Origin: an uncultured Crocinitomix sp.
Lineage (GTDB): Bacteria > Bacteroidota > Bacteroidia > Flavobacteriales_D > Crocinitomicaceae
Length of the DNA stretch: 64,000 nt
Direction of reading: 5' to 3'
Assembly: GCA_937136425.1 (NCBI GenBank)
Contig: CAKZON010000024.1
Coordinates: forward strand, 1 to 64,000
Below the pieces are notes generated by a model. That model made no database searches. It saw only the letters and a program-made list of their open reading frames with translations, and was not told the origin of the DNA. The translations under genes were made by a program, and so were the position numbers. Positions 8,510 through 21,846 of the stretch are shown here, one piece after another (positions within the stretch are counted from its first letter, which is position 1; each line of letters opens with the position of its first letter).

Positions 8510-10690
8510 TTAATCAACTTTAACACTCATCACCAATACATCATCAATTTGTTCCTCATCTCCAAGCCATTCGTTAAAAGCACTTTCAAGCTTATTTTTT
8601 TGTTCTGCCAATGGCATGTGGGCTATCGCAATTAATAATTCTCTAAATCTGCGGTAGTTATATTTTTTTCCTTTCGGCCCTCCAAATTGATCAGCATAAC
8701 CATCTGTAAACACATAAATTTGATCTCCTAGTTGCAAATCAATAGAATGATTGGTGAAAGGTTTTAATTCATCTGAGCTATTACCAATTGGATGTTTATC
8801 TCCTTTAATCTCTATTAATACAACCTCATCCGTTTCAGAAACAATATTCATAACAGGTAAAAGCAAATCTTTATCAAAAGATTTTTTGTTTCTAAGCAGG
8901 TATAAAGGATTTTTAGCACCTGCAAAGTACATTTTACTTCGATCATGATTCAATGCACACATGGCAATATCCATTCCATCTTGAACAGCTTTTCCGTCAA
9001 TCGTTCTACGCAAAGTTTTGTTCACTCCACGGCTTAAATAAAACAATGCCTCTCCTGGAGAATTAACGGTTGGTTCGGTTAAAGTTTGACTCAGAAGGTT
9101 ATTTCCTACAATACTCATAAAAGCACCTGGCACACCATGACCAGTACAATCAACTGCAGCAAATAAAACATACTTATTTTCTACAGGAGCATTGGTGGTA
9201 CTTGTAGACTCAACAAAATAGAAATCACCACTTACAACATCTTTCGGGCGGTAAAAAATAAATGAGTTTGGAACTAAATTATTCACTTGCTCGTCAGAAG
9301 GAAGGATGGCTTCTTGAATTCGCTTAGCATACTTAATACTGCTAACAATCTCTTGATTACTTTTTGCTAATTCCTCTTTTTGTAATTCAATTTCAGAGGT
9401 TCTTTCTTTAACTTGGCGTTCTAATCGGATGTTACTCTCATCCATTAAAGCATTTTTTTCTTTTAATGTATGCAAGGCTTCTTGTTGCGCCTCTTCTTTT
9501 TCCTTTTGCAATTTCCCATATTTATTAGACATGGAAATACTGAGCACTACAAACTCTAACGCCGAACTAATTTTTAAAGCTCCTAACGATATAATTTTAT
9601 CTCCTACAATACTCAAATTGCCCAGTATAAACACTACTCCACCAATAATTAAAATGATAAATGCTAATGCAAAGAAAAAATCAACATTTACTCCTTTTAA
9701 ACGTAATCTAATAATAGTATAAGCAGCCAATAAAACACTAAACAAACTAGCTGCATTAATCAGTGGAAAGGAGATTTCATACAATGCTCCAGGAATAAGT
9801 GACATGACAATTATACCTACCATCAAAACCCTTACACCATAAAAAACCTTCCATAAAGATTCACTATTATTTTTAAGCTGAAGGAAATTATTGACATAGG
9901 TTAAAAGAAAGATGACCGTTAACCCTGCAAACACTAGCAAGGCATGACTAGCAAAATAACCTCCACTTGGAAAGAAATGATGATGCGAATAACCATCTAA
10001 AGAAAATTGCAACATTCCCTGTGAGAAGGCATATAAAATGTAGAACAAAAAGGTTTTATCTCGAAGGAAAAGGAAGAAGAAAAAGTAGATGATAACGACT
10101 AATGCTATCAACCCATAATAAAAACCATTTTTAAACTGATTTTTAAAATCTTGCGCAAAAAAGGACATTCGGTCATGAAAAATAATAGGAGCAAAGAGTA
10201 ATTCTCCATCACTTTCCAATTTTAAATAAAATGTTTTACGTTCTCCTTTTTCTAAATCAATTGGAAAGAGATTTTTACGGTGGACAATTTCTTTATCATC
10301 ATAATGAAAGTCATCTCCACTGACATAATGCTTTTCAATTACATCTCCATTAACTTCAAAGAGTTCTGCCTTGTTAGTTACCGGGCGAGCAGTTTCAAAA
10401 ATAAAGTGCTCAAACGAAGTTTGGTTTTGAATGGTAAAACGCAACCAATAGCGGGATGCAGTGAAATTAAAGTCTAGTATTTTGTCTTCATTTAGAGCAA
10501 AATCTTCAATATTCAAAGCTAAAACCTGCTCAATAGATGCATATTGATCCTCAATATCTTCAAAAACGGTCACACCGACTCCTGAAGACTTTCCCATATC
10601 ATCATCCAAAAGATTGATTTCACTTTGCGAATTTCCGGTAACGGAAAATATCACACCTGTAAAAACGAGAAAGAGGAGCCTTATCAACAT
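8510..10690 (-). CDS. 7TM-DISM receptor with SpoIIE/PP2C phosphatase domain
   Basis: 726 residues. Signal peptide 1-22; a periplasmic 7TMR-DISMED2-like beta-sandwich about 30-165; seven membrane helices about 185-395; a coiled coil about 395-455; and a PP2C/SpoIIE Ser-Thr phosphatase domain about 470-725. The metal-binding aspartates sit in FAAVDCTGHGVPGAFMS and FTDGYADQFGG. The family senses an extracellular, often carbohydrate-like ligand and dephosphorylates a cytoplasmic anti-anti-sigma or regulator protein. No STAS partner is seen next to it. A lipoprotein gene follows 13 bases downstream. Function is assigned by architecture; the ligand is unknown. Confidence 0.88.
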   Translation of the reverse strand: MLIRLLFLVFTGVIFSVTGNSQSEINLLDDDMGKSSGVGVTVFEDIEDQYASIEQVLALNIEDFALNEDKILDFNFTASRYWLRFTIQNQTSFEHFIFETARPVTNKAELFEVNGDVIEKHYVSGDDFHYDDKEIVHRKNLFPIDLEKGERKTFYLKLESDGELLFAPIIFHDRMSFFAQDFKNQFKNGFYYGLIALVVIIYFFFFLFLRDKTFLFYILYAFSQGMLQFSLDGYSHHHFFPSGGYFASHALLVFAGLTVIFLLTYVNNFLQLKNNSESLWKVFYGVRVLMVGIIVMSLIPGALYEISFPLINAASLFSVLLAAYTIIRLRLKGVNVDFFFALAFIILIIGGVVFILGNLSIVGDKIISLGALKISSALEFVVLSISMSNKYGKLQKEKEEAQQEALHTLKEKNALMDESNIRLERQVKERTSEIELQKEELAKSNQEIVSSIKYAKRIQEAILPSDEQVNNLVPNSFIFYRPKDVVSGDFYFVESTSTTNAPVENKYVLFAAVDCTGHGVPGAFMSIVGNNLLSQTLTEPTVNSPGEALFYLSRGVNKTLRRTIDGKAVQDGMDIAMCALNHDRSKMYFAGAKNPLYLLRNKKSFDKDLLLPVMNIVSETDEVVLIEIKGDKHPIGNSSDELKPFTNHSIDLQLGDQIYVFTDGYADQFGGPKGKKYNYRRFRELLIAIAHMPLAEQKNKLESAFNEWLGDEEQIDDVLVMSVKVD

Positions 10691-10891: not shown

Positions 10892-12154
10892 TTAATCAAA
10901 GTGAACAGTACAACCTCCACCAACACAATCGGCATCTGCTCCAACTCCGTTACCCGAAATTGTGTTGTAAGTCATTACACCAGCAGCATCTGTTTGTGTA
11001 ACGCCACCGCAAATCATAGTTGAAGATCCGTAAACATATCCTCCCCAACTATTTGAATTTGAAATTGTGGAATTATCCAACTCTACTCTTCCATCCAATA
11101 CTAATCCAGAATATTCCCAACCCCAATAAGAACCTCCATCAGTAATGTTTACATAAGTCAACTTATTATTTGGATTATTAGATTGTATTCTAATTCCTGC
11201 CCAATATCCTGGACTTGTAAAACGCCCGTTAAAATTAATTGGCATTGTTGCTGATCCAACTGCAGTAAGCCAACCAGACTCTCTAACATCTATTCCTTCT
11301 CCGGCTTCAAACAAAATTGTTGAACCGGCATTAATTGTTAGTCCAGCACTTACATCAATAGTGCTTAAAATCAATAAAGGCGTTGTTGTTCTCTTCCACG
11401 TTTGGTCTGAATTAACAGCTCCTGATCTCACATTAATATAAGCTTGTCCGTTACCAACGTTATAGCTTGATGCCTCATCTAACGAAGCTACGTGTTGCGC
11501 TTCAACACTCAATCCAACTGTTGCATTACTTGAAAAAGTATTATTTGCGAATTCAGTTAGTGTTGTTCCATCTGCAGCAAACAACCCCACTTCTTGCGAA
11601 TTAGAAAGTGTTGAGTTTTTAATAATCAATCTTCCTGCACCGCTCACATATAAGTTAGCAAATTCCCATCCCCAATATGAACCTGCATCTGAAATAGACA
11701 CATATTCTAAGCGATTATTTGGGTTGTTGGATTGAATTCTTAAACCTTCCCAATAACCGGCACTAGCAACTTCTCCTTTAAATTCAATAGGGTTTGTTAC
11801 TGTTCCTACAGCTGTAATAGACCCTGAAGGACTAACATCAAGTGATGCCCCTGCACACATTACAACATCTGCTCCTGCACCAATTGTTAAAGCAGCGGTA
11901 ATTTCAATGTCTCCACAAACTTCTATTCGAGCATAATTCCAGGTTGTTGGTGTTACAACATCCTCTGTTACCACTAAGATTTCTCCTTCAATAATGATCC
12001 CATCATACTCACAAGAACCATCATCATGATTCGCTTTATTATTATAATTATCCGCTAACGGATCTGTACATCCTTCTTTTTTACATGCTGTCACCATCAA
12101 ACTTAATCCGGCAAAAGCAATCATCAGAACACTTGGAATTCTTAAATTTTTCAT
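10892..12154 (-). CDS. Lipoprotein with duplicated right-handed beta-helix
   Basis: 420 residues. The SPII signal has lipobox VTAC followed by KKEG. A short Cys-bounded motif (GCTDPLADNYN..DDGSC), common at the N terminus of Bacteroidota surface proteins, is next. The remainder is two homologous halves of parallel beta-helix. Each has the block GYW.G.RIQSNNPNN..L.YV.I.D.GSYWGWE, starting near residues 132 and 319. Such folds often bind or cleave polysaccharide, but no catalytic residues are apparent. It is transcribed divergently from the sigma factor gene at 12288 and carries the GGTTACCT-N15-CACTAA element 23 bases before its ATG, so it is a likely target of that sigma factor. A strong terminator follows it. 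Confidence 0.75.
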   Translation of the reverse strand: MKNLRIPSVLMIAFAGLSLMVTACKKEGCTDPLADNYNNKANHDDGSCEYDGIIIEGEILVVTEDVVTPTTWNYARIEVCGDIEITAALTIGAGADVVMCAGASLDVSPSGSITAVGTVTNPIEFKGEVASAGYWEGLRIQSNNPNNRLEYVSISDAGSYWGWEFANLYVSGAGRLIIKNSTLSNSQEVGLFAADGTTLTEFANNTFSSNATVGLSVEAQHVASLDEASSYNVGNGQAYINVRSGAVNSDQTWKRTTTPLLILSTIDVSAGLTINAGSTILFEAGEGIDVRESGWLTAVGSATMPINFNGRFTSPGYWAGIRIQSNNPNNKLTYVNITDGGSYWGWEYSGLVLDGRVELDNSTISNSNSWGGYVYGSSTMICGGVTQTDAAGVMTYNTISGNGVGADADCVGGGCTVHFD

Positions 12155-12194
12155 TTTTTCGATTTTTATTTTGCTCTTTAGTGATCGAAAAAAT
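12153..12194. promoter_or_regulatory. Perfect 11-base inverted repeat over the beta-helix gene start
   Basis: ATTTTTTCGAT (12153-12163) and ATCGAAAAAAT (12184-12194) are perfect inverted copies 20 bases apart. They span the start codon and the -10-like element of the beta-helix gene. A third ATCGAAAAA lies at 12234-12242. This could be an operator or an mRNA 5' hairpin. Confidence 0.45.
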
Positions 12195-12206
12195 GAGAAG
12201 GTAACC
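12178..12206 (-). promoter_or_regulatory. ECF-like promoter of the beta-helix gene (GGTTACCT-N15-CACTAA)
   Basis: Read on the minus strand: GGTTACCT (12206-12199), a 15-base spacer, then CACTAA (12183-12178), 23 bases before the ATG. The same element with identical spacing precedes the sigma gene at 12259 and the outer-membrane protein gene at 21824. It resembles a -35/-10 pair for an alternative sigma factor. Confidence 0.55.
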
Positions 12207-12258
12207 AGCCCAGCAAAGTTTTTTTCTATTTTTATCGAAAAAGAAATTTATACAAATC

Positions 12259-12287
12259 GGTTACCTATTCATTTTACACCGCATTAA
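12259..12287 (+). promoter_or_regulatory. ECF-like element at the sigma gene (GGTTACCT-N15-CATTAA)
   Basis: GGTTACCT (12259-12266), 15 bases, then CATTAA (12282-12287), directly abutting the TTG start codon. If it is the promoter, the message would be almost or fully leaderless; otherwise a longer transcript from further upstream is needed. It suggests autoregulation by the sigma factor. Confidence 0.45.
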
Positions 12288-12848
12288 TTGGATAAAAAAG
12301 CTACCATACAGTCAATTCAGAATCAAGACGAGCGAGTTGTTCAGCGCATCTATAGTGAATTCAAACCAAAATTTGTGAATTGGCTTAAAGGAAAATATAA
12401 AATTGGTGAGCAAGATGCGTGCAGTGAAATATACCAGCGCAGCTTTACCGTTTTATTTTTTAATATTAAACGTGGAAAGCTAGATAATTTGGAAGCAAGT
12501 ATTGAAACCTATTTATTTGGAATAGGAAAAATGATTGTTCGAGAGTGGTGGCGAGAACGTGAACAAGACAATAAATCGCTAGATTTAAATGACAAGGACG
12601 ATTTAGCGCAAGTTGATTTATTATCCAATGCGTTTAATGGAAATGAAATTGATGACGACAGGAGGAGAAAATTAGCGAAAGCCATACAAGCTATGGGCGA
12701 ACCTTGCAAAACAATACTAACCCTTTTTTATTGGGAGCGTAACAGTATGGAAGCCATTGCGGCTAAAACTGGCTATAAAAATGAGCAAGGCGCTAAAAAG
12801 AAAAAATATTTGTGTTTAGAAAAATTAAAAAAACAGATGTTGAAATAA
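12288..12848 (+). CDS. Sigma-70 family (ECF-like) RNA polymerase sigma factor
   Basis: 186 residues. Region 2 is about residues 20-95 (DACSEIYQRSFTVLF and YLFGIGKMIVREWW). Region 4 is about 125-186, with the helix-turn-helix around CKTILTLFYWERNSMEAIAA and GYKNEQGAKKKKYLCLEKLK. A TAA stop lies directly before the TTG at 12288, so TTG is the earliest possible start, and no ATG lies near it. The next gene follows with no gap and encodes a membrane TPR protein that looks like its anti-sigma partner. A shared two-part element upstream suggests that it drives itself, the divergent beta-helix lipoprotein and an outer-membrane barrel. This sigma type is often seen near TPR and CHAT genes in Bacteroidota (recalled, not searched). 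Confidence 0.88.
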   Translation: MDKKATIQSIQNQDERVVQRIYSEFKPKFVNWLKGKYKIGEQDACSEIYQRSFTVLFFNIKRGKLDNLEASIETYLFGIGKMIVREWWREREQDNKSLDLNDKDDLAQVDLLSNAFNGNEIDDDRRRKLAKAIQAMGEPCKTILTLFYWERNSMEAIAAKTGYKNEQGAKKKKYLCLEKLKKQMLK

Positions 12849-13565
12849 ATGGAACTAAGTGCAGAACATATCGCATTATTTGACGCTTATATTCGAAATG
12901 AATTAAGTGCTCAAGAACGTTTGAACTTTGAGGAAAAGTTAAACAATGATAACGCCTTTAAGCAAGATTTTGAAGCCTTTAAAAGCTTTGAGCAAGATAT
13001 GTTTGATGCTGAGGTAATTGCATTCAAAGATAAACTTGACGAATGGGATAAATCTGCAAAAGAAAACACAAAAGAGAAAACACGTATAATTCCAATTCGA
13101 CTAATTGGTCTCGCTGCATCTATTGCCATTATAGTAACCTTTTCTATCCTCTATTTTATAGGGCAACCCAGCCATCAAGATTTAGTTGCTACGAATTTTC
13201 AACCTTATGACAACATTTTAACTGTAAGAGGTGAAAAGGAAGATTTGGACGAAGGACTAATGCGGTACGAAGCCAAAGAATATCAAGCAGCAATTGCTTT
13301 ATTCGAAGGATACCCTGACAATATAAATGCCCAATTTTATAGTGGTGAAGCTTATTTAGCTTTGAATGATTACGAGGCTGCAATTAATGTTTATAAACGG
13401 GTTTTACAAACTGACGGTATCTTTAACGAAGTTTCTGAATTTCACTTGGCACTTGCATACCTTGGAAATAACAACACCCAATTGGCAAAAGAAACGTTGT
13501 TGGCCATTCAAAAAGAAAGTGATTATTTCATTAATGCTGAAGAATTATTGGTTGAATTAGAATAG
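12849..13565 (+). CDS. Single-pass membrane TPR protein, probable anti-sigma factor
   Basis: 238 residues. The N-terminal 80 residues are cytoplasmic and helical (FDAYIRNELSAQERLNFEEK), resembling the sigma-binding arm of Bacteroidota anti-sigma proteins but without zinc-binding Cys/His. One membrane helix lies at about 84-105. The C-terminal 130 residues, predicted periplasmic, carry two or three TPR-like units (AIALFEGYPDN, AQFYSGEAYLALNDYEAAI). The ATG follows the sigma stop directly (TAAATG), so the pair is coupled. The natural reading is that periplasmic TPRs sense a binding partner and release the sigma factor. Its 3' end overlaps the convergent CHAT gene by nine bases. Confidence 0.75.
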   Translation: MELSAEHIALFDAYIRNELSAQERLNFEEKLNNDNAFKQDFEAFKSFEQDMFDAEVIAFKDKLDEWDKSAKENTKEKTRIIPIRLIGLAASIAIIVTFSILYFIGQPSHQDLVATNFQPYDNILTVRGEKEDLDEGLMRYEAKEYQAAIALFEGYPDNINAQFYSGEAYLALNDYEAAINVYKRVLQTDGIFNEVSEFHLALAYLGNNNTQLAKETLLAIQKESDYFINAEELLVELE

Positions 13566-16034
13566 TTTCCGTCCTAAGAATATCAATACAACCAACAAAC
13601 CTGCACCAATTAAATATCTCCACCAACTTACGCTACCTCCTTTTTCATATAAAGGTTGATTGTTCCCATAAACCACATAATTCGCCCAAAAAAACGGTTG
13701 TTTTTTTATCTTATCAGCTTGCTTAAGGTAATTGATTTTTGCCCTTTGCAAACTTTCTGACTTATTGCCCCCCATTTTTAAGTTGGCATAGAAATCAACC
13801 ATTATTTCTGATGAGCTTTTATCCTGAGCACTCCAAAGGCTTCCGACAGTTGAAGGGATACCAGAATAATAAAAAGCATTGGCTAAACTTATAATTCCTG
13901 TGCCGTCCTCAATTTTACCCTTTGCCGTATTACATGAACCTAAAGTAACCATTTCAGCTTGGATATTTAGTGCGAAAACTTCATGTGCAAAAAGTCGATT
14001 TAAGGAATCATTTTTAATCGTATTAAACACTAAATAAGATCGGTAAGGATGCTCTGCATTCAACATAGAATGTGAAGCTAAATGAATGATATCAGCCTCG
14101 CTCGCATGGTTCAAGAAATTTGCTTTTGTAGCCTCTTCGGATCTGAAAACCTCAGCATTAAAGTTTTGTTCAAACGTGTTAACCTCTTCAGCAGCATTCG
14201 ACAAAATAGAAAGTGAATCTATGCCATAGTTTGATGGATAAAAGCACATGAACCGCTTGGGCACTACTACTTCTTTTCCGTCTGCAATAATCCCATAAAA
14301 AGAGTAAGAATAACTCACGCGATAATCCTCCACCAAATAACGATTATTATTATCCAACAAGGCGTCAAAACTAACATAACTTAATTCATTCATTGGAGAA
14401 ATAAGTAGATTATCGGATTCAAATTTAGACTGAAAGGGCGCGATTAAAAAATTATGTAAATCATGATTCAACTTCTTTTGAATTGCAAGACTGTCTTTAC
14501 TGTATTGAATTTGTCCATTTAATGCATAGGATCTTTCAATTATTGCAGTTAAATTTTCAATTTGAATTTTGTCAAAAAAGTGGTTTTCAACACCCACACC
14601 AATAACATAAACACAATGGTTTGCTCGGTCAGGGAAATAAGTAATTAGGGTCGTTGTATCCACTTGCAAATAGCTTTCCAATCTGGATGAAAACTGCGTA
14701 TTGTTGAATCGATATTCTTCTAAAATTTGTGATCTTTTTGTTTTCTTTTTTAAATCTGCCAATTCATAAGACAACTTTCTATGCTTATTTCTGATTTCTT
14801 CGTTATCTGCCGATTCTTCAATCTCTTTATTTAAAAAGATAATTTGATTTTTCAACTCTTTTTCTCTACTCCAAAGGTTCGCATTAACCTCTTGAGATAT
14901 CCTTTCTAAGTGCAATCTTCCTGACTGATAAGTGTCAAGTATTCGAATGAGCTCAATTACATTTTCTCTGCTCCCACCTACTTCGTCTGAGTAAACATGA
15001 AATATTGATAAGAGTTTTATCAATTTCTCTTCTGATCTCAAAATAACGTTTCCAATTTTTTCTCCATCATTTTGCAAGGCTACTTTTTCAGCTAATAAAA
15101 AACCTGTTTTTGCCCATTCATATGAAGCAATTAAAAAATCTTTATCGTTAGATTTTTCAAATCGAAATTGCTCTGCATCTGCGAGTAAAAAGATATTTTC
15201 AAAAAAACTCCGAGTTACCATATTTGGATTTGCATCTAAATACTTTTCCATATCTAAGTATGAATCATATTGAGGGTATTTCGCTATGAATCCGAGTAGT
15301 TCTGTGTATTGCTCGCCATAAAACTGCGCCCTTATTACAAAGTGAATAAAACGATCATGTGGTTGATCTATAGTATCTTGCTCTTCATACAGAGCTAAAC
15401 CTTGTTTTGCAAAATCAACAGCCTCTAAGTGGCGCCCTGTTCTAGAATAAAATACAGATCTTTCGCTTAGTAAATTCATTCTTAAATAAGAAAGACTTGG
15501 GTTATTGTCAGCAATTTCATAGGCCTGCTTCCAATACGACTCTGCCTGAGCAATATTTCCCATATTCAAACTTAAGGCAAAAGTTGAGTGATAAAAATCC
15601 AATAAAGCCTCATTATAACTCAATATTGGAATCAATCCTTTTAAGCTTTTCAGTAAATTTTCACAACTTACTATATACTCATTTGATGCTGAAAAATCTC
15701 CCCTAAAAGCTTCAAACAATGCAACCTTACGATAGAGTTCAACCAAATCCAAATAATCTTCTTCAAGCGGTTCTGGTGCTTTTTCTAAAAATTGCTCTCT
15801 AAAGTATATTGCTTGCAACAGATAAGACCGTGAATCATCTTGATCACTAAACGTTTTATTGTGCCAGTCTGCAATTTCTTGACATATGATTGCCTTACTT
15901 CTAAGATCGCTAGGTGTATTTTTGTCTTCGAGTACAGATAGCACATTTAACAATGAATCTAAATTGCTAGCTCTAAGTCCGCCTGAAATCCCTATTAACA
16001 TGACCAAGAAAAAAAATGGCCGAACACTTATCAT
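13557..16034 (-). CDS. Secreted TPR-CHAT protease with C-terminal membrane anchor (copy 1)
   Basis: 825 residues. Signal peptide 1-22; TPR-like helices about 25-390; a coiled coil about 380-440; and a CHAT (caspase-like, clan CD) domain about 500-780. The dyad is visible: H655 in HLASHSML and C701 in LGSCNTAKG, with the family motif SLWSAQDKSSSE. A membrane helix follows about residue 797 (WWRYLIGAGLLVVLIFLG), then a short basic tail. The catalytic domain should therefore face the periplasm, unlike cytoplasmic CHAT proteases of the separase or gRAMP/Craspase kind. It is about 150 bases downstream of a close paralogue and convergent with the sigma/TPR pair. Substrate unknown. Confidence 0.85.
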   Translation of the reverse strand: MISVRPFFFLVMLIGISGGLRASNLDSLLNVLSVLEDKNTPSDLRSKAIICQEIADWHNKTFSDQDDSRSYLLQAIYFREQFLEKAPEPLEEDYLDLVELYRKVALFEAFRGDFSASNEYIVSCENLLKSLKGLIPILSYNEALLDFYHSTFALSLNMGNIAQAESYWKQAYEIADNNPSLSYLRMNLLSERSVFYSRTGRHLEAVDFAKQGLALYEEQDTIDQPHDRFIHFVIRAQFYGEQYTELLGFIAKYPQYDSYLDMEKYLDANPNMVTRSFFENIFLLADAEQFRFEKSNDKDFLIASYEWAKTGFLLAEKVALQNDGEKIGNVILRSEEKLIKLLSIFHVYSDEVGGSRENVIELIRILDTYQSGRLHLERISQEVNANLWSREKELKNQIIFLNKEIEESADNEEIRNKHRKLSYELADLKKKTKRSQILEEYRFNNTQFSSRLESYLQVDTTTLITYFPDRANHCVYVIGVGVENHFFDKIQIENLTAIIERSYALNGQIQYSKDSLAIQKKLNHDLHNFLIAPFQSKFESDNLLISPMNELSYVSFDALLDNNNRYLVEDYRVSYSYSFYGIIADGKEVVVPKRFMCFYPSNYGIDSLSILSNAAEEVNTFEQNFNAEVFRSEEATKANFLNHASEADIIHLASHSMLNAEHPYRSYLVFNTIKNDSLNRLFAHEVFALNIQAEMVTLGSCNTAKGKIEDGTGIISLANAFYYSGIPSTVGSLWSAQDKSSSEIMVDFYANLKMGGNKSESLQRAKINYLKQADKIKKQPFFWANYVVYGNNQPLYEKGGSVSWWRYLIGAGLLVVLIFLGRKLF

Positions 16035-16183
16035 AAATTCTAATTCTATTGTTTGGGGTTTGAATTGAGCGATTCTAAAAGCATCAAATTCTCATCTCAC
16101 AACTTTATTTTTAGGGAGCAAATTTTCAAAGGTGAAATAAATTTATTAAACCTCCAAACCAATTCAAAATAGCTTACCGAACT

Positions 16184-18700
16184 TTATTTTTTCTTTGGAT
16201 AAAACCACACAATAACTAACAGTAAAATGATCGATCCAGCCCCTACTAAATATTTTGTCCAGGATGTTGAGTTTGATTTTTCATAAAGAGGAGAATCATC
16301 ACCATACACCACATAATTAGCCCAAAAAAACGGTTGCTTTTTGATCTTGTCTGCTCGTTTAAAATAATTGATTTTAGCACGTTGTAAACTTTGCGACTTA
16401 TTTAATCCAGACTTTAAATTGGTATAAAAGTCAATCATTATTTCTGATGAACTTTTATCCTGCGCACTCCATAAACTGCTAACTGTTGCAGGAACACCAG
16501 CAAAATAAAATGCGTTTGCTAAACTAACAACGCCTATCCCCTCTTCGATTTCTCCTTTCGCAGAATTGCAAGAACTTAAAGTGACCATCTCGCAATTCAA
16601 TGTTTTAGAAAAAATTTCATGCGCAAATAGTTTATTTTCAGTTGAATCTGTTGTTTGATCAAATAATATATATGACTCATATGGCCGTGCAACATTAAGC
16701 ACTGAATGGGAAGCCAAATGCAAGATTTGCTTTTGATTAGAAACATCCAAGAAACTCTGTTTTGTAGCAGCATTACCTTTGAAAGTTTCACCACCTAACA
16801 CATCCTTAATTTGACCTACCTCATGCTCTCCATTATTCAAATAAGCCAACGAATCTGTCCCATAATTACGAGGGTAATAGGATGCAAAAGTAGGCTTTCC
16901 GCTAGGTATCCTTTTCTCATTAATCACCGAAAACAAAGAACTTGTATATTGCAATGCATAGGATTCGAAAAGATATTTCTCCTCTTCATCTAGCATGGCA
17001 TCAAAACTCACGTAGCTCATTTCATTGTTCGGATAAATCAATAATTCGGTGGTGTTAAAATGATGCCGAATGGGTTTTACTAAATAATTATATAAGGCTT
17101 TATTTAGTTCTTTTTGAAGTGCAATAGTCTCTGGATTTGTCTGTAAACGGGCGTTTAATTGATACGACTCAGCAATTAATGGTATAAAATTTTCAGGAAC
17201 TGCCAATACTTCAAAATATACCTCACTTTGGTTCGCTCCAATAACATAAACAGAATCATTTTTGTTTTCATAAAAATAAGTCACAACGTTTTTATTTGAG
17301 CGCTCGATAAAGTTGTTGAGCAGTTCTTTAAACTGATTTTGGCCTATTTGATACTCGGCCATAATTTTGTCATTCTTCGTTTGTTTATTCAGCTCCTGAA
17401 TTTTTGATGAAAGCGAATATGCAATATCACTCAAAGAATCAATATTTACCCTACTTTCCTTTTGTTTGGAGGCTTCCTCTAGTTTTAGGTTGACATAAAT
17501 AAGTTCATTTTTCATTTTTTTTTCTTCCTGAGATAATTGCCTATTCACACTGTATGAAACACGTTCAACATGTAACCTTGCTGACTGTTGTACATCAATC
17601 ATTCGAAGACCTTCAATTATTTTATCAGAAGTTAATTCTTGATGATTTTTTAAATGAGCCATACAAATCAAGTTTCCAACTACTTTGTTTTCCGGATCAG
17701 AAACAATATTCCCGATTTTATCGACATTGTTTTTCACAATATAGTCCTCCGCAATTTGAAATGCGGCTTGTTGCCAACGATCTGCCTCATTAATTAAATC
17801 AATATCATCTGAAATATCATACATACGCATTAGCGCAAATGATCGAATAAAAATATTATCTACAAAATTACCCAAGTCAACCACATCTTCAGATGCAGCA
17901 GATTCAATGGCCTCTTCTATTGTTCTAAAGCCTTTTCTTTGATCCAAAAAAGCAATCAATTCCTCATACTTTTTATTTCGAAATTTTGCAAAAACATAGC
18001 TACGAACAAAAACAAATTCATCAATGGGGTAATAAATTGCATTTTGGTCATACACTTGCAGGGCTTTTTCGGCGTATAACTCCCCTTCATCAAAGTTTTT
18101 AATCGCACATAAAAGTTCTGCACGATAGCGATAATTTTCCGCAAGATAAATTGAGCTTTCTCCTGTTTTCAAAAGCATTTTTTCAACTTTCGATAATTGT
18201 GTCTCTCCTTTCACATAGTCTTTTACATGAAATGACATAGCGAAATTGCTATGATAAAACTCGACCATAATAGCATTATACTCCTCACTAGGAAGTTGAT
18301 TTTTTAATCGCTTATAAAATTCTTCTGATTTATCAATGTATCGTGTCGCTTGCTCCTTATTTCCTGTTGTTGATTCAAACGTTGCAATATTTCGGTAGAG
18401 GTATGCCAAGTCATAACAATTCTGGGCACTCCAATCTTCTTCCAATTCAATTCTTTCTTCAGTAAAAGCGATTGATTGCAGAAAATAAAACCGCGCTTTA
18501 TTTTGCTCTCCAAGCTCTTGATAACGTACAGCAATATTATTACAAAGTATACTTTTTTGATCCAGATTTTCTGAAGTTACGACTGCAGGAATTTCTGACA
18601 AAGTATTTAAAAGAGAATCTAAAACTGTTGCTCGACTGCATAATGACCCGAAGCCAAAGAACAAAGACAATAAGAATAAGCGAATTTTAAACACACTCAA
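16184..18700 (-). CDS. Secreted TPR-CHAT protease with C-terminal membrane anchor (copy 2)
   Basis: 838 residues, a tandem paralogue of the 13557-16034 gene with the same plan: signal peptide, TPR helices, coiled coil, CHAT domain and C-terminal membrane helix. The dyad is H665 (HLASHSVL) and C711 (LSSCNSAKG). The segment ADKIKKQPFFWANYVVYG is identical in both copies. The start is TTG at 18700 or GTG at 18696; no ATG is close. Upstream lies the terminator of the S9 peptidase gene, so it probably has its own promoter; TATTTTTG ending at 18698 fits the -7 consensus but sits too close to the start. Both copies keep the catalytic residues, so this looks like functional duplication, not decay. 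Confidence 0.84.
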   Translation of the reverse strand: MSVFKIRLFLLSLFFGFGSLCSRATVLDSLLNTLSEIPAVVTSENLDQKSILCNNIAVRYQELGEQNKARFYFLQSIAFTEERIELEEDWSAQNCYDLAYLYRNIATFESTTGNKEQATRYIDKSEEFYKRLKNQLPSEEYNAIMVEFYHSNFAMSFHVKDYVKGETQLSKVEKMLLKTGESSIYLAENYRYRAELLCAIKNFDEGELYAEKALQVYDQNAIYYPIDEFVFVRSYVFAKFRNKKYEELIAFLDQRKGFRTIEEAIESAASEDVVDLGNFVDNIFIRSFALMRMYDISDDIDLINEADRWQQAAFQIAEDYIVKNNVDKIGNIVSDPENKVVGNLICMAHLKNHQELTSDKIIEGLRMIDVQQSARLHVERVSYSVNRQLSQEEKKMKNELIYVNLKLEEASKQKESRVNIDSLSDIAYSLSSKIQELNKQTKNDKIMAEYQIGQNQFKELLNNFIERSNKNVVTYFYENKNDSVYVIGANQSEVYFEVLAVPENFIPLIAESYQLNARLQTNPETIALQKELNKALYNYLVKPIRHHFNTTELLIYPNNEMSYVSFDAMLDEEEKYLFESYALQYTSSLFSVINEKRIPSGKPTFASYYPRNYGTDSLAYLNNGEHEVGQIKDVLGGETFKGNAATKQSFLDVSNQKQILHLASHSVLNVARPYESYILFDQTTDSTENKLFAHEIFSKTLNCEMVTLSSCNSAKGEIEEGIGVVSLANAFYFAGVPATVSSLWSAQDKSSSEIMIDFYTNLKSGLNKSQSLQRAKINYFKRADKIKKQPFFWANYVVYGDDSPLYEKSNSTSWTKYLVGAGSIILLLVIVWFYPKKK

Positions 18701-18726
18701 AAATAATTTTTTTACGCAAAATAGAA

Positions 18727-18763
18727 ATAAAAAACCCGTTTCAGCATTTGCTAAAACGGGTTT
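18727..18763 (-). terminator. Terminator after the S9 peptidase gene
   Basis: AAACCCGTTT (18732-18741) pairs with AAACGGGTTT (18754-18763). On the minus strand a T-rich stretch follows. It lies 20 bases past the peptidase stop and isolates it from the CHAT gene. Confidence 0.85.
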
Positions 18764-18783
18764 CTTTAATTCTTTTGATCTTA

Positions 18784-20901
18784 TTATTTATTGTTATCAA
18801 TTACATAATCTAATACCTTTTGCATTAAATGCACACGATCTTTTCCGCGTACATTGTGCTTATGCATTGGATAAGGAAAGAAATCCATTTGAACACCTTC
18901 CTCAACAAAAGCCTGCACTAGGCTTAGGTTATGTTGCATTACAACCACGTCATCCATTGTTCCATGAATCAACAATAAATCTCCTTTTAATTTAGCGACA
19001 TGATTTTTAAGATTATTTGCCTTATACCCTTCTTCATTCTCTGATGGCATATCCATATAACGCTCTCCATACATGATCTCATAATAACTCCAGTCAGTTA
19101 CTGGCCCGCCAGCTACACCAACATTAAATACACCAGCCTCACGAAGCATTAAAGAGGTTGTCATAAAACCACCAAAACTCCAACCATGAACAGCTAAACG
19201 ATTTGCATTTACATATGGCAAAGATTTTAGATGTTTCACACCCTCCATTTGATCCGCCATTTCAGCCGTACCCAGTTGACGGTGAATTACGCTTTCAAAT
19301 TCAAAACCTCTATTAGCTGATCCTCTATTATCTAAAGTATATACTAAATAACCTTGTTCGGCCATCCAATACATCCACAAACTAGCACCGCCTAACCACG
19401 AATTGGTTATCAATTGTGCATGAGGGCCTCCATAAACATATACCAATACTGGGTATTTTTTCTTCGGATCAAAATTACTTGGTTTAATTAATCGGTAATT
19501 CAAGTCTGTTTTTCCATCAGCTGCTTTAATTGTGCCAATTTCGGCTTTCCCCATTACAATGCCTTCATATGGATTAGCAGCAGTCAATACCTCTCTCAAC
19601 ACTTTCCCCTTAGACAGGTCGTAAATAGTTTCTTTGTTTGGAATATAGTTAGAAGACATTTGGTCATACATTAAAGTATAATCAGATGAAAAAGAAACGT
19701 GATGTGTTCCTGCACCATTTGTTAACTGTTCTTGCTTACCACTCTTTAAATTCACTTTAAAGGCATGCGTTTCCATTCCATTTGCACCAGTTCCTTGAAA
19801 ATAAACATTCCCCTCTGTATCGTGTCCAATAATTTCTTGCGCTACCCATTTATTCTCAGTCAATTTTCTCACTAAAGCACCTTGATCATCATAGAGGTAT
19901 AAATTCATAAAACCGTCACGCTCGCTCATCCAAATAAATTGATTGTCATTCACAAAATACACTGGATGTTCTGGTTCAACCCATTTATCATTTTTTTCTT
20001 CAAATAATGTTTTTTCCAAGGCTCCGGTCTTCGTGTTATACTTATTCAATTTCATATGGTTTTGTCCACGATTTACCTCAGCAATGTAGAAGTGCTCATC
20101 TTTAGGTCCCCATCCAAAATTCGTCAAATAATCATCCTTCTCTCCCGTAGGCTTAACCGTAACAGATTCATTTGCCCCAACATTAAAAATAACAACTGCT
20201 GGTCTTTCACTTTTTTGTCCTGCCATTGGATATTTAATTGACTTTAAAGACCCTGTTGGCGTATCAATATTTAACAATGGATAATCAGCAACATCTTTTT
20301 CGTCTTTTTGATAATAAGCCAATAATTGCCCATTGTTTGACCAAAATGTTCCTTTTGTAATTCCAAATTCACTTCTAGCAATTGCCTGGCCTGAAACTAC
20401 GTCATCATCCGTTTGTGCTACAGGAAAAGATAAGCTTGATACAAATAATTTATTTTCAGTAGTATAAGCCAAACTTTTTGATGCACTTGTAAAATCTACA
20501 GCTCCAGAAGCACTTGGATAAGATGCAAGAGCTTCGCTTGTTTTTTCTTTAAGATTAATTAAAAAGTATTGCTCTCCAATAGTTGTATAAAATGAATTTT
20601 CATCAACCCACTCTGTCACATTCACATAACGTGGCTGTCCACCGGTCATTGTTGCTAATTCAGCAGTAGTAATAATGCTACTTGTTTTATCATTTTTCAC
20701 ATTTCCTTTTAATAGCGTTTGATAGTCAGCTGAAAGAAAAGAATAGTTATTCGTTCCAGGTATCCACTGCACCATATTAGTACTTTCCGGATAAAATTTT
20801 CTGTATTGTTGCATTACAGCATCTTCAAGAGTTAATTCTTGTTGTGCCTGTGCAACATTAGCTGCAACCCCAATAAATAGGAATAAAAGTAATTTCTTCA
20901 T
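18784..20901 (-). CDS. S9 family dipeptidyl peptidase IV-like protease
   Basis: 705 residues. A signal peptide (MKKLLLFLFIGVAANVAQAQ) is followed by the DPPIV N-terminal beta-propeller about 90-440 and the alpha/beta-hydrolase domain about 470-705. The catalytic triad is visible: Ser in GWSFGGFMT, Asp in HGTMDDVV, and His in MHKHNVRG. The Glu pair of the propeller that binds the substrate N terminus is not clear to me. It should cleave X-Pro/Ala dipeptides from peptides in the periplasm, as part of protein nutrition typical of Bacteroidota. It has its own terminator downstream and about 260 bases upstream that include another gene's terminator, so it is a single-gene unit. Confidence 0.9.
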   Translation of the reverse strand: MKKLLLFLFIGVAANVAQAQQELTLEDAVMQQYRKFYPESTNMVQWIPGTNNYSFLSADYQTLLKGNVKNDKTSSIITTAELATMTGGQPRYVNVTEWVDENSFYTTIGEQYFLINLKEKTSEALASYPSASGAVDFTSASKSLAYTTENKLFVSSLSFPVAQTDDDVVSGQAIARSEFGITKGTFWSNNGQLLAYYQKDEKDVADYPLLNIDTPTGSLKSIKYPMAGQKSERPAVVIFNVGANESVTVKPTGEKDDYLTNFGWGPKDEHFYIAEVNRGQNHMKLNKYNTKTGALEKTLFEEKNDKWVEPEHPVYFVNDNQFIWMSERDGFMNLYLYDDQGALVRKLTENKWVAQEIIGHDTEGNVYFQGTGANGMETHAFKVNLKSGKQEQLTNGAGTHHVSFSSDYTLMYDQMSSNYIPNKETIYDLSKGKVLREVLTAANPYEGIVMGKAEIGTIKAADGKTDLNYRLIKPSNFDPKKKYPVLVYVYGGPHAQLITNSWLGGASLWMYWMAEQGYLVYTLDNRGSANRGFEFESVIHRQLGTAEMADQMEGVKHLKSLPYVNANRLAVHGWSFGGFMTTSLMLREAGVFNVGVAGGPVTDWSYYEIMYGERYMDMPSENEEGYKANNLKNHVAKLKGDLLLIHGTMDDVVVMQHNLSLVQAFVEEGVQMDFFPYPMHKHNVRGKDRVHLMQKVLDYVIDNNK

Positions 20902-21086
20902 ATATATTTTTTAAAGAATTTCAATGCATTAACCTTGAATGCTTTGAGGTTCTAAATCATTAAAATTGAATCGTAAAAATAGGAATAAAATCTGCTTTTT
21001 TAACTGAATATTACATAAATGGCAGTAATCCCATTTTAGCAGTTAGATCCAAAATTCGCACCAAAACAAATGATAAAACACATAGA

Positions 21087-21139
21087 ATTAAAAATCCCCG
21101 TTCAAAACATTATAAATTTAATGTCTCAAACAGGGATTT
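21087..21139 (-). terminator. Terminator after the outer-membrane barrel gene
   Basis: A 20-base imperfect stem with G-U pairs (21092-21111 with 21120-21139; ends AAATCCCC and GGGATTT). On the minus strand TTTTTA follows. It begins 22 bases past the stop. Confidence 0.8.
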
Positions 21140-21160
21140 ATCCAAGTATTATAGGAACTA

Positions 21161-21781
21161 TTAGATCTTCAAAGTAAGCCCTACTTTTGCCCAACCTAAA
21201 GGGTTTCTACCTGTTTCTAAAAACGCACCAAGCTGATCGGAAAAGTAATATCTAAATCCTGCAAAATATCCAAACCTCCATGAAGAATCAAAAGTCTTAC
21301 GCTCATGCTGTTCATTCGTACCTGTTTGATCCCATTTCTCCGTCGTATTAATCCATAATAAACCTGTAGAGGCTCCAACATAAAAATCAAGTTTATCTGA
21401 ATTTAGTCCTCCCATTTTATCTTCTAGCAAATTTTTGAGAAAATCTAAATAGTGAAAAGAACCTCTAAAACCTACAGTTTTATATTCATATTTGTACAAA
21501 TAATCGCTTGCTGTAAACAAGCCGTCTTTATAACGTCTTAAACCATACTCGGCCTCTAATCCAAAACTTAAATAATCTGTACTAGCATATTCGAAATTTA
21601 ATGCTACCGGAGGAATAATATTTACAACATCCCAAGAATAACCGTAATCATACCACCCCAATGTAATAGATGGGTTAATTAATACGTTTCCTTTTTCAAT
21701 TGATGGCGCGCTCTGAGCCAGAGTAGTAGATGATGCTGAAAAAATCAACAATAATACAAGCGCATTTTTCAAATAATTCAT
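21161..21781 (-). CDS. Outer-membrane beta-barrel protein
   Basis: 206 residues from the ATG at 21781. The signal peptide is MNYLKNALVLLLIFSASSTTLAQ. The mature part has alternating amphipathic strands rich in aromatic residues (SITLGWYDYGYSW, FGYFAGFRYYFSD, WAKVGLTLKI), as in small OmpW/OmpX-like barrels. A longer frame from 21826 would add 15 residues, but those codons overlap a promoter-like element, so I prefer the shorter form. GGTTACCT-N15-CACTAA ends 14 bases before the ATG and is shared with the 12.2 kb sigma locus, so this may be a distant member of that sigma regulon. Function beyond barrel formation is unknown. Confidence 0.7.
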   Translation of the reverse strand: MNYLKNALVLLLIFSASSTTLAQSAPSIEKGNVLINPSITLGWYDYGYSWDVVNIIPPVALNFEYASTDYLSFGLEAEYGLRRYKDGLFTASDYLYKYEYKTVGFRGSFHYLDFLKNLLEDKMGGLNSDKLDFYVGASTGLLWINTTEKWDQTGTNEQHERKTFDSSWRFGYFAGFRYYFSDQLGAFLETGRNPLGWAKVGLTLKI

Positions 21782-21795
21782 AAAGTTTTTTTCAA

Positions 21796-21824
21796 TTAGT
21801 GCGCCTATTTTTAAAAAGGTAACC
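21796..21824 (-). promoter_or_regulatory. ECF-like promoter of the outer-membrane barrel gene (GGTTACCT-N15-CACTAA)
   Basis: Minus strand: GGTTACCT (21824-21817), 15 bases, CACTAA (21801-21796), then 14 bases to the ATG. This is the third copy of the element found twice in the intergenic region at 12.2 kb. Confidence 0.55.
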
Positions 21825-21846
21825 AATTGAAAAAAAATATTTTTTA

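Follow-up and report, generated by a model that had tools for sequence, protein, structure and literature searches.

Three genes in a 64,000-nucleotide stretch of a marine Crocinitomix genome (the window) are preceded by the same two-part element with the same internal spacing, which raises the question of whether these elements are promoters and, if so, which sigma factor reads them. A pattern search of the window returned three exact occurrences of GGTTACCT-N15-CAYTAA, where N15 corresponds to N16 when counted from GGTTACC, and the largest count across 100 dinucleotide shuffles of the window was 0. One predicted promoter of the ECF type lies on the minus strand (12178-12206; -35 GGTTACC, -10 CACTAA), 23 bases before the ATG at 12154 of a divergent beta-helix lipoprotein gene. 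On the plus strand, the predicted autogenous promoter of an ECF-type sigma gene (12259-12287) combines a -35 GGTTACC (12259-12265), a 16-bp spacer, and a -10 CATTAA (12282-12287) that directly abuts the start codon, with 0 bases to the TTG at 12288. The last one, again on the minus strand (21796-21824; -35 GGTTACC, -10 CACTAA), stands 14 bases before the ATG at 21781 of an outer-membrane barrel gene. An earlier sequence-only reading of this DNA had placed the element at these positions and strands with identical spacing, had given the distances of 23, 0, and 14 bases, and had judged the recurrence very unlikely by chance in 64 kb; the sequence and the shuffles confirm all of it.

Distribution and conservation of the element

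Enrichment in the strain's own genome was judged by pattern and profile searches. Five exact N15 matches are present in the 6.1-Mb genome, at the three window sites and at C14:1509 and C110:140074, and the N14-16 form is found at eight sites. Reversed-pattern controls gave two and three matches, respectively, so that the exact count is about 2.5 times its control. This raw genome-wide count alone is a modest excess; it is position and conservation that make the case decisive. Seven of the eight N14-16 sites precede exported-protein or sigma genes and one (on C33) is intragenic.

The comparison was extended to nine Crocinitomix genomes, including the strain's own. The sigma gene is present in six of them, the other five orthologues being 54-92% identical to the protein of this strain. 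The sequence-only reading had proposed a scan of this genome and its relatives for enrichment before start codons, and the result was uniform: each of the 16 exact N15 sites found across the genus is followed, after 0-55 nt, by the start codon of an open reading frame of at least 185 aa. An exact site occurs in five of the six genomes with a sigma orthologue versus none of the three without. The sixth sigma-bearing genome, C. catalasitica, has near-exact sites only, namely GGTTACT...CACTAA at the sigma gene, GGTCACC...CACTAA at the lipoprotein gene, and GGTAACC...CACTCA at the barrel gene. The sigma-gene site is kept in all six orthologous loci, as GGTTAC-N17-CAYYAA abutting TTG or GTG, and in the aligned intergenic regions upstream of sigma it forms an indel-free footprint within diverged sequence. 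The lipoprotein site is likewise kept at 6/6 loci and the barrel site at the 5/5 loci that have the gene, GGTCACC and GGTAACC..CACTCA variants among them. The cluster of lipoprotein, sigma, TPR, CHAT, S9, and barrel genes is syntenic as far as the contigs extend. In a profile search of the genus, in which the training sites match by construction, about 20 sites were set apart from the background by a clear gap, and all of them precede genes. One genome (G062, 84% complete), in which a sigma orthologue was not found, nevertheless has two near-consensus sites.

Two further features of the locus were observed. A gene for a 7TMR-DISM/SpoIIE phosphatase (8510-10690 in the window) also adjoins the lipoprotein gene in the four other loci that reach that far and may belong to one signalling locus with it. 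In C. algicola only, a palindrome-like ACGTGAATTACACGT lies upstream of the sigma promoter.

Which sigma factor reads the sites

Upstream regions of other ECF genes carry GGTNACCT in 24 of 43 cases in the family and in 16 of 24 cases in the order, against about 1.9 and 1.0 expected from shuffles, a pattern in keeping with ECF autoregulation. Because of this recurrence, the GGTNACC -35 is a property of the ECF family. The -35 alone is not specific to the sigma factor encoded at 12288, and the sequence comparison marks the N16-CAYYAA combination as the specific part; GGTTACC alone was rejected as a mark of the 12288 regulon because many paralogous ECF promoters carry GGTNACCT. N16 (from GGTTACC) with CAYYAA is found in the Crocinitomix sigma clade and in a sister clade from another family, and the sigma-gene site of L063 reads N16 CATTAA, whereas other ECF clades mostly have N15 with CATAAA, CATTAA, or GATATA. 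The sole outlier is L037, an unrelated long-branch ECF with N16-CATCAA. The strongest argument for a reading of N16-CAYTAA by the 12288 sigma is this agreement between spacing and sigma phylogeny.

What was seen directly is that the sites exist, where they lie, that they are conserved, and that their spacing follows the sigma clade; we infer recognition by the 12288 sigma factor. As the sites are conserved and co-occur with the sigma gene, and as N16-CAYYAA tracks its clade, the three are very probably promoters of this ECF sigma factor. The sequence-only reading had taken the element for the -35/-10 of this sigma. That assignment gains from the footprints at six loci, the co-occurrence, and the clade-tracking spacing, and gives way in one respect, the GGTTACC half not being sigma-specific. 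A literature search for GGTTACC together with a sigma factor retrieved nothing relevant, and we found no published promoter motif for these Flavobacteriales ECF sigma factors in the searchable literature.

Other explanations were weighed against the same data. It is unlikely that the sites are ECF-family promoters whose main reader is not the 12288 sigma but a paralogous sigma factor (on C44 or C68). The paralogues' own promoters in this genome do carry GGTGACC or GGTTACC, and G062 carries its two similar sites without a detected 12288 orthologue, but the paralogue promoters combine N15 with CATAAA or GATATA, N16-CAYTAA tracks the 12288 clade and its sister, and genomes without a 12288 orthologue have no exact sites although paralogues are present. 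Some of the sites could be read by paralogues that share this -35. That GGTTACC is the site of a separate regulator acting over ordinary promoters, with CAYTAA incidental, seems very improbable. The 7-bp palindrome GGTNACC and the inverted GGTCACC...GGGTGACC pairs at some loci would suit such a regulator; however, the pairs are accounted for by divergent promoters, the spacing to CAYTAA is fixed across species and is typical of ECF promoters, and the element recurs before ECF genes with a clade-specific -10. That an AT-rich bipartite string recurs by chance has a negligible probability: despite the modest excess over the reversed control, every exact genus site stands in front of a gene, and sites are conserved down to an orthologue protein identity of 54% while their flanks diverged.

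Related arrangements were seen in other clades. A second ECF clade (L087, upstream of G000:C44:78605, and relatives L022-L030) has GGTGACC-N15-GATATA, and several of its members have an inverted GGTCACC copy upstream of it; these copies are probably back-to-back divergent promoters. In the sister clade, L133, L134, and L135 also carry a divergent GGTTACC-N16-CAT[CT]AA upstream of sigma, without a clear following gene.

The sigma locus and its start-codon overlap

The sigma factor (12288-12848, plus strand) has 186 aa and a TTG start, replaced by GTG in two orthologues. It matches the sigma70-ECF model TIGR02937 over residues 21-184 (E=1.4e-8), with a score of 34.5 bits that is below the NCBI curated cut-off of 42.9; the model matches all six orthologues, at best with 8e-12, and a Pfam scan of the window protein gave no match. 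The ECF-model match and the -35/-10 with a spacing of about 16 bp upstream of its own gene (6/6) fit membership in ECF group IV. The ATG of the next gene (12849-13565, plus strand) follows the sigma stop codon immediately. Its product, a membrane protein with an N-terminal helical domain, one transmembrane segment, and TPR repeats, is probably the cognate anti-sigma factor. The antisigma profile NF052375 matches five of the six orthologues (best 7e-6), the window copy falling below the cut-off at 0.066, and a structure search with the AlphaFold model returned TPR matches only.

Two TPR-CHAT proteases of the same architecture, with an apparent C-terminal transmembrane segment, are encoded on the minus strand at 13557-16034 (Pfam CHAT E=1e-51; motifs LASH and GSCN) and 16184-18700 (E=2e-49; LASH and SCN). 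Catalytic His/Cys motifs are present in two CHAT proteases encoded with the sigma and its putative inhibitor. Read by eye, both have signal-peptide-like N-termini and C-terminal transmembrane-like segments, and a CHAT-like reading frame also adjoins the sister-clade sigma in L135. By analogy with type III-E CRISPR, where a TPR-CHAT protease cleaves the inhibitor of an ECF sigma (PMC10028731), the CHAT proteins may release the 12288 sigma and are candidate activators.

The explanation that we favor, and hold with high confidence overall, joins these elements. The three sites would be GGTTACC-N16-CAYTAA promoters recognized by the ECF sigma of 12288-12848. While the cell is at rest, the sigma is probably held by the TPR membrane protein; its release would follow an event in the periplasm, for which cleavage by the neighboring exported TPR-CHAT proteases is a candidate. 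The freed sigma would then transcribe its own operon, the divergent lipoprotein gene, and the barrel gene; a DUF3108-like gene (C20) and two genes for T9SS cargo (C14, C110) probably complete the set in this strain. The weak ECF score, the -35 shared with paralogues, the G062 sites, the L037 outlier, and the awkward geometry at the sigma gene count against it.

This geometry concerns where transcription and translation begin. A TTG or GTG comes straight after the -10 hexamer in each of the six orthologues. It appears to be where translation begins, because codons 2-6 vary mainly at third positions (five of five third positions variable versus three of ten others, P ~0.02, six orthologues). Ile7 (12306-12308) is ATA in 6/6 orthologues, where ATA makes up 27% of Ile codons, and the codons of the other invariant Ile residues vary among orthologues. 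An internal ATA start at codon 7 was considered, but the third-position variation favors TTG/GTG. An open-complex scaffold of sigma-H has its -35 duplex starting at -34 (PMC6411747), so the expected transcription start is some 34-36 nt away from the first G. This corresponds to sigma codon 3, and the self-made transcript may therefore lack the sigma start codon. A leaderless transcript starting exactly at the TTG was judged unlikely, as transcription would then start right behind the -10, with no intervening base. The sequence-only reading had noted the difficulty of a near-leaderless transcript; the difficulty is conserved in six of six species and is sharper than it had stated, the expected start falling inside the sigma reading frame.

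Among related promoters, the C68 paralogue of this genome has its TTG at 35, as needed for a leaderless transcript. Start codons lie 27-32 nt from the first -35 base in L133, L135, L136, L139, and L142, and at least three further ECF lineages in the order have overlaps of this size. For the sigma gene, the possible options are a promoter in effect serving the anti-sigma gene only, a roadblock, or an unusual transcription start. A tentative reading of the site's position is that the autogenous promoter yields a transcript with the anti-sigma but not the sigma, or acts as a roadblock on an upstream sigma promoter, giving negative feedback in either case. A T-rich block ending in TATTTTTR (approximately 12217-12234, plus strand) aligns in every orthologue, some 18-26 nt ahead of the sigma -35, and is a weak candidate for the -7 element of a housekeeping promoter. 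No -33 TTG matching this block was seen in the orthologue alignment, and a housekeeping promoter upstream of sigma was set aside, as it has no -33 and nothing convincing emerged from the overlapping loci beyond the genus.

Predicted regulon and known systems

The lipoprotein (10892-12154, minus strand) has a Beta_helix match just under the curated Pfam cut-off (E=1e-5) and a lipobox-like ...VTACKK. The barrel-like protein (21161-21781, minus strand; 206 aa) has a weak OMP_b-brl match (E=0.0013), and its true start is probably the ATG at 21781 rather than the TTG at 21826, both site and ATG being conserved. By inspection, a terminator-like inverted repeat, AAATCCCTGTT...AACGGGGATTTTT (21150-21100, minus strand), follows the barrel gene, which suggests that this gene is monocistronic and that the S9 and CHAT genes are outside its operon. 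Beyond the window, the sites at C14:1509 and C110:140074 stand 15 and 55 nt before exported T9SS cargo genes (Por_Secre_tail), and five genomes, diverged in sequence, carry a site at the DUF3108-like gene, with a spacing of 16 or 17 from GGTTACC or GGTTACT. These two cargo genes and the DUF3108-like gene are probably further targets in this strain. The small envelope regulon of the sequence-only reading thus keeps its exported and envelope targets and its predicted autoregulation, but is probably wider, taking in T9SS cargo and the DUF3108-like protein. A separate lipoprotein family (CKKGENDP...) has GGTTAC[CT]-N15-CATTAA 5 bases before its ATG in two species (G000:C14:10833 and G060:C84:32768), and its transcript is possibly leaderless. 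The C14:10833 site, with N15 counted from GGTTACC, was left out of the regulon because the C68 paralogue is its probable reader.

RpoE-RseA of E. coli and SigW-RsiW of B. subtilis are autoregulated pairs of an ECF sigma and a membrane anti-sigma, with promoters of about 16-bp spacing and envelope targets. The Crocinitomix locus resembles them in its ECF sigma and putative membrane anti-sigma, its spacer of about 16 bp, and its predicted autoregulation and envelope targets, but differs in having GGTTACC rather than GGAAC as the -35, TPR repeats in the putative anti-sigma, and a promoter that abuts the sigma start codon. The kind of system is already known, whereas the motif, the regulon, and the start-codon overlap were not found in the searchable literature. 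The analysis gives this Flavobacteriales ECF group a conserved motif and a small predicted regulon that includes T9SS cargo, and describes a -35 (GGTNACC) shared by an ECF family whose -10 and spacing differ by lineage. An ECF sigma, a putative TPR anti-sigma, and CHAT proteases are also linked here outside CRISPR.

The type III-E CASP system consists of Csx29 (TPR-CHAT), Csx30, and CASP-sigma (PMC10028731). As in CASP, a TPR-CHAT protease, a sigma inhibitor (putative here), and an ECF sigma share one locus with several intralocus sigma motifs. In contrast to CASP, the Crocinitomix CHAT proteins look exported and membrane anchored, and the inhibitor would be a TM-TPR protein. No Cas7-11 or CRISPR proteins were present among the nine neighboring proteins scanned, and the locus is not classed as a CASP member. 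If the start-codon overlap is functional, it would provide a simple and testable negative-feedback wiring. Streptomyces sigma-E has an experimentally supported repressor role, in which it occupies its own site as a roadblock (PMC10771440), and is a precedent for such action by an ECF site placed over other promoters or downstream of them; in Crocinitomix, a roadblock is suggested by how the site sits against the sigma start codon.
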